A stretch of 46,116 nt of DNA, from assembly GCA_007118565.1 (NCBI GenBank), contig SKRI01000192.1, forward strand, positions 1 through 46,116, written 5' to 3'. Under the pieces are notes generated by a model. The model searched no databases, was not told the origin of the DNA, and saw nothing but the letters and a program-made list of their open reading frames with translations. This document shows positions 39,395 to 42,497 of the stretch, in pieces. The number at the start of each line of letters is the position of its first letter. Within the stretch, counting starts at the first letter, position 1. A program made the position numbers and the translations under genes. The stretch is from Gemmatimonadota bacterium. GTDB taxonomy: Bacteria; Gemmatimonadota; Gemmatimonadetes; Longimicrobiales; Longimicrobiaceae.

Positions 39395-40900
39395 TCAATC
39401 CTCCACCGGCTCGAGATCCTGCCGCGCCGGGCCGGTCAGCACCTCCCCGGTCGGCGCGAATCGGGAGCCGTGGCACGGACAGTCCCAGCTGCGCTCGGTA
39501 CCGTTCCAGTGGACCACGCATCCCAGGTGGCGGCAGGTGGCCGTGCGGAGGTGAAGCGTCCCCTCCTCGTCCCGATACGCTGCGACGCGCTTGCCGTTCC
39601 GGACCACGATTCCGCCCTCCCCCGGCCGGAGCTCGCCCGTCTCGGACACGTCCCCGGAGCTGACCCAGTCGGCGTACTGCCGGGCCACGTTGAGGTTCTC
39701 CTGCGCGTACGTTCCCGCTGCTCTTCCCCGGAATCGCGATGGGTCGTAGATCTCCCTCCACTCGTGGTCCTCTCCGTCGACGAGCGCGGGCAGGATCATT
39801 CCGGCGAGCGTACCGTGCGTCATGCCGTGTCCCGAATCGCCGGTGGAGAGGAAGACATTCTCGTTCTCCGGGTCGGCGCCGATGTGCCCGAGGCCGTCCA
39901 TCGGCTCCCATACCTGGCCGGACCAGCGATGGACGACCTCCCCCACCCCTGGGATGTGCTCCCCGCTCCAGCGCTCCAGCGCTTCGAAGCGCTCCTGCCC
40001 GTCGTCCGCCTGTCCCGTCTTGTGATCGGCCCCGCCCACGATGATGTAGCTCCGTCCGCCATCGCGGGCGCGGCGGACGTAATGGTACGGCTCGGCGGTA
40101 TCCCAGAGGAGGATGTCAGGAAAGTCGCTGCGACCCGGATCGAGGGCGATGGCGAATGTCCGGTAGGGGGCCTGCTTCGAATGGATCGCGATCCAGCTGC
40201 TGATCGGCGAGTTGGTGGTGATCACCGCCCGCGACGCGGACACGGTGTGACCGCCCGTCACGCCCAGCTCGACCGGGCTCCCCCCGCTCACCTCCTCGAC
40301 GGCTGTGCCGGTGTGGATGCGGCCACCTCGGCGGAGAAAGGCCTCCTCGAGCCCGGCCAGGTAGGCGAGCGGGTGGAAGCGTCCCTGGCCACGGTAGCAG
40401 ACGCTCGGGCCCGAGAAAGAGGCCACCGGCGCTGTCTTGATCAGCTCGACCTCGGCGCCGGCCGTCCGGGCGGCCCTCGCCTCCTCCCGCATGTCCTCGG
40501 GGGAGGCGTTCTCCGCCCGCACGAGGTAGCCGTCGAGCCGGTGGAAGTCGCATCCGATCTCCTCCTCCCGGACCCACCGCTCGATCTGGTCGATGGCGGC
40601 CGCGTGGCTCCGGTGCCCCGCTCGCGCCCGTTCCTTCCCATGGATCCGCACCAGACGGGGGAATCCCTCGTCGAGCGCGCTGGAGAGATGCGCGGTCGTC
40701 TGCCCCGTCTCCCCCGCCCCGATCATGGCCTTCTCCAGCAGCACGACCTGCCGTCCGCGCCGCGCCAGCGCGTAGGCGGTCGACAGGCCGGCGATCCCCG
40801 CGCCCACGACGCAGACCTCGGTGGAGACGGACTCGCGGAGCGGCTCGTGACGGTTCGGGAGCGGCGTCCAGACGGACCGGCTGCGTTCGGTGGTGGTCAT
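39395..40900 (-). CDS. FAD-dependent oxidoreductase fused to a C-terminal Rieske [2Fe-2S] domain
   Basis: This 501-residue two-domain enzyme has an N-terminal DAO/glycine-oxidase-type domain with FAD-binding VCVVGAGIAGLSTAYALARRG at about 30-50 and substrate-side GQTTAHLSS. A domain-closing VFLSTGDSGHGMTHGTLAG follows. The Rieske domain (about 415-500) has cluster ligands in CRHLGC and CPCHGSRF, all present. Fusions of this kind occur widely as soluble oxidoreductases of unknown substrate. The start at ATG 40900 leaves a 109-bp gap after the upstream synthetase gene, holding a 7-bp hairpin (40972-40990) that could be a weak terminator. Confidence 0.9.
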   Translation of the reverse strand: MTTTERSRSVWTPLPNRHEPLRESVSTEVCVVGAGIAGLSTAYALARRGRQVVLLEKAMIGAGETGQTTAHLSSALDEGFPRLVRIHGKERARAGHRSHAAAIDQIERWVREEEIGCDFHRLDGYLVRAENASPEDMREEARAARTAGAEVELIKTAPVASFSGPSVCYRGQGRFHPLAYLAGLEEAFLRRGGRIHTGTAVEEVSGGSPVELGVTGGHTVSASRAVITTNSPISSWIAIHSKQAPYRTFAIALDPGRSDFPDILLWDTAEPYHYVRRARDGGRSYIIVGGADHKTGQADDGQERFEALERWSGEHIPGVGEVVHRWSGQVWEPMDGLGHIGADPENENVFLSTGDSGHGMTHGTLAGMILPALVDGEDHEWREIYDPSRFRGRAAGTYAQENLNVARQYADWVSSGDVSETGELRPGEGGIVVRNGKRVAAYRDEEGTLHLRTATCRHLGCVVHWNGTERSWDCPCHGSRFAPTGEVLTGPARQDLEPVED

Positions 40901-41009
40901 GGCGGCGAGTGGCGGCTGAAGGATTCGGATGCGCCGCACGTTTCGGGAAGTTCCGTGCCCCGAGCCTGCGCGATCGGGCAATCCCCGATCTCCCCCTTCT
41001 CCCGAATGG

Positions 41010-42248
41010 TCAGAAGAGGTAGAGGGGATGCGTGTCCGGGTTCTTTCCGAAGCAGGTTACGTCCTCGATGCTCTCGATCTCCGGACCCCGGAGCAGCGCC
41101 CAGAGTGTCCGCTCAATGCCGATCCCGCCGCCGAAGGTCTCGGGAAAGGTGGAGCGGCCCTCCGCATCCGTGCGGCTCGCCACCAGGAGAAAAGGGCCGT
41201 AGCCGCCGAGCTCGTCGATGTTCTCGATCCTGCCGTCGCGGAAGACCGGTGCGGTCGGGATGATCCGGTTGTCCAGGAGCCGGGCGATGATCGGCTCGGC
41301 CAGCCACTCGCGAATGGCGCCGCTCAGCACCTCCCGCGCGGGCGTCACCGCTCCGCCCCGGCGCAGCTTCCCCTTCACACAGAGGTCGAAGTTGTAGACG
41401 TCGCGGCTCGGGAAGGAAGCGATCTCCCGACGGGTGCCGTCCCTGTTGAGGTACGGGTAGATGAGATCGTAGTTCTCCCGCATGAGGCCCCCGATCCAGA
41501 AGAACGGGCTCTCCGTCTCCGCGCCGAGCTTCTCCTCGATTCCCGACCGGCCATGCCGGGCGAGCCCTTCGTCGAGCCGGAAGACGGGGAAGGGATCGTC
41601 CGGGAGATCGATGGCCACCCCCAGCGCCTCGAGGTCCCCCTCGTTCCGCTCCAGCACGCGGGAGAGGCCTGCCCTGAACATCTCCTCGAAGAAGCGCATG
41701 GCCCGCTCGAAGTCGGCGCGCAAGATTTCACGGACCTCGTCCGGCCGGTCGTAGTAGTCGTCCAGCTGGACTCCCCGGTTCCGGCGGACCTCCACGTCGA
41801 GCTGGCTGAAGTCGATCAGGTATCGCCCCCGCTGCCCCCCGTCGGGAGAGGGAACCTCCAGCCGGATGTTGGGAGAATCGACCCAGACGCCCTGAATGCG
41901 GGGCCCGAGGCACGCCAGAAACTTGCTGTAGATCATGCTGTGGGTGGTGACGTAGCGCTGCCCCTTGTAGTCGATGGTGGGCGTGTGCTCCACGTCGTGG
42001 TTGAGCGGGTCGGTGACGAGGCTCATCTGCACCCGCTCCAGGTTGAGGAGCCCTGCACGCACCAGCGCCTCCTGCATCCCCGTGACGAACGAGGTACGGA
42101 TGGCCATGACGTGGTAGAGGGCGTCCGATTTCCAGCGCTCCACGTAGTGGCGCTCGATGAAGTGGGCCATGGACGACCCGCTCATGTCGACGGCGGACTG
42201 GAAGTGGGAGAGCTGCTCGCCGATCTGGTCGTACGCTGAATCGTGCAT
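41010..42248 (-). CDS. AsnRS/AspRS paralog without anticodon domain, probable asparagine synthetase
   Basis: This 412-residue class II synthetase-type catalytic domain shows a motif 1-like helix and strand (MQEALVRAGLLNLERVQ), and a motif 2 region with NIRLE followed by LIDFSQLDVEV (compare RHxPEFTQLDVE of AspRS/AsnRS). Motif 3 is GGGIGIERTLWALL near the C-terminus. There is no OB-fold anticodon-binding domain; the N-terminus is a helical region instead. Such AsnRS-derived proteins include the archaeal-type asparagine synthetase, which amidates aspartate through aspartyl-AMP. The upstream leader with Asn codons and a terminator strongly suits an asparagine-supply role. A non-canonical aminoacylating function remains possible. 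Confidence 0.75.
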   Translation of the reverse strand: MHDSAYDQIGEQLSHFQSAVDMSGSSMAHFIERHYVERWKSDALYHVMAIRTSFVTGMQEALVRAGLLNLERVQMSLVTDPLNHDVEHTPTIDYKGQRYVTTHSMIYSKFLACLGPRIQGVWVDSPNIRLEVPSPDGGQRGRYLIDFSQLDVEVRRNRGVQLDDYYDRPDEVREILRADFERAMRFFEEMFRAGLSRVLERNEGDLEALGVAIDLPDDPFPVFRLDEGLARHGRSGIEEKLGAETESPFFWIGGLMRENYDLIYPYLNRDGTRREIASFPSRDVYNFDLCVKGKLRRGGAVTPAREVLSGAIREWLAEPIIARLLDNRIIPTAPVFRDGRIENIDELGGYGPFLLVASRTDAEGRSTFPETFGGGIGIERTLWALLRGPEIESIEDVTCFGKNPDTHPLYLF

Positions 42249-42275
42249 GAGTCCGGAGGTGGGAGACGGAGGATG

Positions 42276-42312
42276 AAAAAAGCCCCCGACCTGCGCGCGG
42301 CAGGTCGGGGGC
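42276..42312 (-). terminator. Intrinsic terminator in the leader of the asparagine-synthetase-like gene (attenuator)
   Basis: A perfect 13-bp GC-rich stem (42300-42312 with 42282-42294; 5-nt loop) is followed on the minus strand by U6 (42281-42276). It lies only 28 bp before the gene's ATG and downstream of its apparent promoter, so it must be bypassed for expression. The next upstream gene (DinB-like) ends 266 bp earlier, with the promoter and leader ORF in between. Confidence 0.88.
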
Positions 42313-42381
42313 CCGGGAGCTCCCTCGCGGAGAGGAGCTACACGGCGATCCCGTCCCACGCGCGCGGGGCGCAGGGGAGAT
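42306..42381 (-). promoter_or_regulatory. Possible alternative RNA pairings of the attenuator
   Basis: By hand, AUCUCCCC (42381-42374, containing the last Asn codon) can pair with GGGACGGGAU (42357-42348). The overlapping CGUGGGACGGG (42360-42350) can instead pair with CCCGGGCCCCCG (42317-42306), which includes the 5' half of the terminator stem. These would be segments 1:2 and 2:3 of a classical attenuator, with the terminator as 3:4. Both helices contain mismatches or bulges and have not been computed. Confidence 0.35.
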
Positions 42382-42418
42382 TGCCGGAATTGTTCCGCGC
42401 CAGCGGGTATGCGCTCAT
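42338..42418 (-). CDS. Candidate leader peptide with Asn codons (26 aa)
   Basis: An ATG at 42418 opens a 26-codon frame reading MSAYPLARNNSGNLPCAP and then RAWDGIAV, ending at TAG 42338-42340. Three of five consecutive codons (42394-42380: AAC, AAT, TCC, GGC, AAT) encode asparagine or adjoin it. It ends 26 nt before the terminator stem. There is no convincing ribosome-binding site upstream, which is its main weakness, though many genes in this window lack one. In an attenuation model, ribosome stalling at the Asn codons would decide between terminator and antiterminator. Confidence 0.55.
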   Translation of the reverse strand: MSAYPLARNNSGNLPCAPRAWDGIAV

Positions 42419-42468
42419 GGTCGAGTCGGTCCGGCGTTCGCGCGGAGAGCGAGAGCCCCGCTCCGGCA

Positions 42469-42497
42469 AGATTACGATGCGGTCCCGCGGTTCACAA
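42469..42497 (-). promoter_or_regulatory. Putative promoter of the asparagine-synthetase-like gene and its leader
   Basis: On the minus strand, TTGTGA (42497-42492) and TAATCT (42474-42469) are exactly 17 bp apart. Transcription would start near 42462, giving a leader of about 215 nt that contains the short Asn-codon ORF and the terminator. The hexamers are partial consensus matches. Confidence 0.4.

Follow-up and report, generated by a model that had tools for sequence, protein, structure and literature searches.

A probable asparagine-codon transcription attenuator before an AS-AR-type asparagine synthetase gene in Gemmatimonadota, with a likely separate counterpart in spirochaetes

The window, that is, the whole stretch of 46,116 nt analysed here (contig SKRI01000192.1 of the Gemmatimonadota assembly GCA_007118565.1), carries on its minus strand a gene for a bacterial AS-AR (AsnRS-like asparagine synthetase A), preceded by a short asparagine-containing ORF and an intrinsic terminator. 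Listed in the direction of transcription, the locus comprises the following elements:

43120-42578, minus strand: DinB-like gene, upstream on the same strand, ending 264 nt before the hairpin
42469..42497, minus strand: promoter-like pair by direct reading, TTGTGA (42497-42492), a 17-nt spacer and TAATCT (42474-42469)
42338..42418, minus strand: leader peptide ORF of 26 codons, MSAYPLARNNSGNLPCAPRAWDGIAV, with ATG at 42418 and the stop codon TAG at 42338
42380..42394, minus strand: proposed control codons AAC AAT TCC GGC AAT, containing Asn9, Asn10 and Asn13
42338..42377, minus strand: distal block of the ORF, within which region 2 of the switch is proposed to lie; identical to the orthologous locus L005 at 35/40 nt
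42319..42338, minus strand: small hairpin of the leader fold between leader stop and terminator, its sequence not conserved in L005
42276..42314, minus strand: intrinsic terminator, with 5' arm 42314-42300, 3' arm 42294-42280 and six T at 42281-42276
41010..42248, minus strand: the putatively regulated gene, bacterial AS-AR, 412 aa, with ATG at 42248

Directly downstream of AS-AR lies a gene for a FAD-dependent oxidoreductase with a C-terminal Rieske domain (39395-40981, minus strand), which may be co-transcribed with it.

The AS-AR protein (41010-42248) matched no Pfam family at 1e-3, and its match to the NCBIfam model for asparagine synthetase A fell below that model's cut-off. This constitutes an annotation gap, as the protein has many invariant residues in common with relatives in many phyla and yet escapes Pfam. 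PDB sequence and profile searches instead returned archaeal AsnRS-like proteins first, including asparagine synthetase A, which is the best sequence match in the PDB aside from its P. furiosus homologue 1nnh. The AlphaFold2 model was confident (pLDDT 85.5, pTM 0.87) and matched best to 3reu, the archaeal asparagine synthetase A with Asp and ATP. Likewise, archaeal asparagine synthetase A (AS-AR; 3p8t, 3reu) is the best fold match (E 2.7e-17, TM 0.78 on the target) and the closest relative of the class II synthetase catalytic core, although it is shorter than the bacterial protein (294 vs 412 aa). Furthermore, the motif THSMIYSK, whose Lys109 is invariant across 36 relatives, carries the aspartate-type Lys and not the Glu of AsnRS: at the same position, the genome's own AspRS has Lys (QSPQLYK) and its own AsnRS has Glu (VSGQLNVE). 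We take this position to be the site separating Asp from Asn binding, with the register set by the motif and by knowledge of AspRS and AsnRS. Homology and predicted fold thus support the identification of the window gene as an AS-AR-type asparagine synthetase, and the initial annotation had guessed well in proposing an asparagine-making, AsnRS-like enzyme.

Besides AS-AR, the genome encodes a true AsnRS of its own, and no AsnB over the curated cut-off was found in this MAG (94% complete), leaving AS-AR as the only asparagine-making enzyme detected in it; the gene is therefore probably the cell's source of asparagine. AsnB is present in 91/150 genomes of the order, and it accompanies AS-AR in G254, the second Gemmatimonadota genome treated below, and in 4 of 14 scanned spirochaete genomes with AS-AR. 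As charging by AsnRS needs free asparagine, sensing of Asn-tRNA at the AS-AR gene would make sense.

The 26-codon ORF with the run Asn-Asn-Ser-Gly-Asn, first noticed in the initial annotation, was confirmed at 42418-42338 of the minus strand, with its Asn codons at 42394-42392, 42391-42389 and 42382-42380. The 266-nt intergenic region was shuffled 3000 times at constant dinucleotide content: none of the shuffles produced an ATG-initiated ORF with at least three Asn in five codons, and a single one did so (1/3000) when GTG and TTG starts were permitted; across the whole window, the leader is the sole one of 196 short ATG ORFs with such a cluster. The Asn cluster of the window leader is not a product of chance. 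As a control, an equally dense run of any one of 15 amino acids appeared in 24/500 shuffles, so that it is the match to the gene product and the conservation that carry weight. Counting against an attenuator, the window leader has three Asn codons only, and these are not all adjacent. The GC-rich stem with six T, previously read as a terminator, is real: it comprises 15 pairs, 11 of them G-C, folds at -32.2 kcal/mol and starts 23 nt after the leader ORF. The leader RNA as a whole folds more stably than its shuffles (z = -2.7).

Elsewhere in the class, AS-AR was found in one genome only among 394 (G254, locus L005; 67% identical), and no further Gemmatimonadota AS-AR gene was detected in 394 class and 154 order genomes, which sets the Gemmatimonadota sample of leaders at two members. 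The L005 gene, which lies behind a gene unrelated to the DinB-like gene of the window, is likewise preceded by an Asn-rich ORF, MTPAVCIRNSNSNRNNPCARRGREGIGV followed by a stop codon, with five Asn, and by a 17-bp terminator. An in-frame ATG lies 24 nt further upstream (L005:2302-2325), with a GAG whose spacing resembles that of a ribosome-binding site, and may be the true leader start. The promoter-like pair proposed for the window, whose -10 box TAATCT ends 50 nt 5' of the leader ATG, fared less uniformly: a strict sigma-70 scan gave no match, whereas a pair of the same spacing and the same -10 box (TTGCGT-N17-TAATCT) recurs at L005 in a similar place.

In a first set of 77 orthologues whose upstream sequence was available, the combination of Asn-rich ORF and terminator was present in L005 and three spirochaetes. 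None of the remaining 73 had both, although some showed a terminator (L043, L068 and others) and some a weak Asn ORF (L022, L062 and others). The attenuator is therefore confined to two lineages and is not a general trait of the enzyme family. With more spirochaetes sampled, the number of AS-AR genomes from that phylum rose to 16, 13 of them with upstream sequence (L078, L079, L083 and L094-L103), and a still larger sample of the spirochaete order contained no new ones; all 13 genes with upstream sequence were preceded by an Asn-rich leader ORF and a terminator. The search for an Asn-rich short ORF plus terminator before orthologous genes, suggested by the initial annotation, was hence positive in L005 and in 13/13 testable spirochaetes of the leader clade, and this comparison strongly supports its attenuator reading. 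As for paralogues, rumen bacteria (L051 and L061; G397) carry two AS-AR copies per genome, without an Asn leader where read. Alternatively, the hairpin could terminate transcription of the DinB-like gene upstream (43120-42578), with the short ORF a chance frame in the spacer; a same-strand gene does end 264 nt 5' of the hairpin, and strong intergenic terminators are ordinary. Such an arrangement appears very unlikely, however, since ORF and terminator stay with AS-AR behind an unrelated gene in L005 and also in the 13 spirochaetes, both Gemmatimonadota have promoter-like elements in the interval from the upstream gene to the ORF, and the Asn cluster is missing from the 3000 shuffles.

The spirochaete leaders contain 3-7 Asn each, for instance MARVFFGNNGNLLNNNAAPGAGPEPNI, MSKSAPLVLRTNNNNNRTAAAAEPVPRA and MKHIANNNSSLNNCRVATADPALCA, and share their geometry with the two Gemmatimonadota leaders. 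In all 15, the last control Asn is followed by the stop after 10-13 codons and the stop by the terminator stem after 18-26 nt, a position of the stop codon that fits coverage of region 2 by a finishing ribosome. Asparagine makes up 20% of leader residues, compared with 2.0-4.2% of the enzymes. In each of the 13 spirochaete loci there is a TTGAC-type promoter with a -10 box ending 6-11 nt before the leader ATG, and their peptides are therefore probably translated from leaderless or nearly leaderless RNA. In many of them (L078, L094-L100), 160-260 nt separate the terminator from the AS-AR start, and this gap holds an extra ribosome-binding-site-like stretch with a start codon, possibly belonging to a second small ORF or to an N-terminal extension. 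In the protein tree, well-supported branches separate the two leader groups, and the leader label needs at least two changes (gains or losses); the Gemmatimonadota and Spirochaetota attenuators likely had separate origins.

What is conserved within the leader ORF differs between its parts. The last 40 nt of the window and L005 ORFs align without gaps at 35/40 identical positions, and all five differences are non-synonymous, whereas the Asn-rich part has diverged in sequence with its Asn retained. This 40-nt block occurs in 2/394 class genomes, once in each and both times before AS-AR, and no further copies were found in the 394 genomes with three mismatches allowed. One might suppose that the ORF encodes a functional small peptide, such as a modified-peptide precursor for the enzyme, with the terminator merely setting the ratio of peptide to enzyme mRNA; the ORF is indeed conserved, and AsnB-type asparagine-synthetase-like enzymes modify peptides (PMC13060819). 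However, every one of the five changes in the block alters the peptide, so that selection acts on the RNA and not on the peptide; moreover, the spirochaete peptides are unrelated to that of the window except for Asn, and none of the neighbouring genes scanned was recognisable as one for peptide modification. We consider a functional peptide extremely improbable. The idea of a modified-peptide precursor was itself rejected, as PesC, from the nitrile synthetase paper (PMC13060819), is AsnB-type and not AsnRS-like. RNA kept at the end of the ORF together with an amino acid kept in its middle is, by contrast, what an attenuator would predict from such an alignment.

Another possibility is that a riboswitch, a T-box or an RNA-binding protein operates the terminator and that the Asn codons occur there by coincidence. 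In Firmicutes, asparagine genes are under the control of T-boxes, which, like the device proposed here, read the charging of tRNA-Asn through a terminator, and a large, structured leader in front of an amino-acid gene would suit such a control. T-boxes differ in that the tRNA itself binds to them and no ORF is required, and Rfam scans, with the T-box model included, gave nothing above threshold in the window, in 14 leader loci or in 14 other orthologues. Furthermore, the Asn codons are retained where the surrounding sequence diverges, and Asn-rich ORFs of equal geometry exist in a second phylum that shares no RNA sequence with the first. Incidental Asn codons under a control of this kind therefore seem a most improbable explanation.

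Returning to an attenuator operated by the ribosome, the folding models were set up with the 3' arm of the terminator not yet made and a ribosome placed either at the Asn codons or at the stop. In 15/15 of them, the 5' terminator arm was more sequestered with the ribosome at Asn than at the stop, a contrast that follows in part from the set-up, as more of the RNA is unoccupied when the ribosome has stalled. The arm was also sequestered in the modelled untranslated window leader, so that termination without translation is not predicted. The 1:2 and 2:3 helices drawn by hand in the initial annotation can both be formed on paper, yet the 2:3 duplex of the GC-rich window leader does not exceed the strength of shuffled ones (z = 0.0), nor does that of L005 (z -0.1), which leaves this helix possible and not demonstrated; an antiterminator formed in the folding models and is plausible in the window leader, though not above the chance level of GC-rich sequence. 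In spirochaetes, the antiterminator duplex exceeded shuffles in L094 (z -3.9), L100 (-2.6), L095 (-2.3) and L102 (-2.0). Within one spirochaete clade, 9 pairs of the leader fold (1:2) had changed on both sides, a value reached by 0/500 shuffles, for a fold derived from one of the aligned sequences, and the same alignment showed no two-sided changes in the terminator or antiterminator helices (92% and 89% paired).

Thus, we interpret the window leader as a ribosome-mediated transcription attenuator that would sense charged tRNA-Asn and control an AS-AR-type asparagine synthetase, a reading to which we assign a probability of about 0.9 from the comparison of sequences. Very probably, it would act as a switch permitting production of the enzyme only at asparagine shortage. 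With Asn-tRNA plentiful, the ribosome would pass the Asn codons and proceed to the stop, covering region 2 at the end of the leader ORF, upon which the terminator (3:4) would form and transcription halt before the gene. With Asn-tRNA scarce, the ribosome would instead be expected to stall at Asn9, Asn10 or Asn13, leaving the end of the ORF free to base-pair with the terminator's 5' arm, and transcription would run into the gene.

Leader-peptide attenuators are known for trp, his, leu, thr, phe and ilv. The arrangement described here has in common with them the codons for the product amino acid in a short ORF, the alternative structures and the intrinsic terminator before a biosynthetic gene, and differs from them in its asparagine codons, its class II synthetase-like target and its occurrence in Gemmatimonadota and Spirochaetota. 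A survey of premature terminators from 2010 (PMC2965389) stated that the leader-peptide systems demonstrated up to that date all came from Proteobacteria or Actinobacteria, and it contributed a further one, for hisS in bacilli; asparagine goes unmentioned in its main text. An Asn-specific leader peptide was likewise not found in open-access papers, which formed the scope of our search. In Sinorhizobium meliloti, the transcript of the trpL attenuator begins at the leader ATG (PMC7298713), as those of the spirochaete leaders appear to do; trpL uses tryptophan codons, and the window leader instead has a predicted 5' UTR of ~40-45 nt. We therefore rate our finding as a new amino acid, a new target and new phyla within the known mechanism of leader-peptide attenuation. 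On a broader view, there is a good chance that these leaders represent an Asn-specific class of attenuators that arose at least twice before one enzyme, that its spirochaete peptides are leaderless, and that it marks a poorly annotated bacterial family as asparagine synthetases.

If this holds true, asparagine would become one more amino acid to which leader-peptide attenuators respond, and the range of the mechanism would extend by two phyla, in an apparently convergent case on one enzyme. A leader tuned to Asn codons would also mean that the gene behind it most likely makes asparagine, providing functional evidence for a protein family whose member in the window matches no Pfam model. Leaders of the Asn type could then serve for finding and annotating such enzymes.
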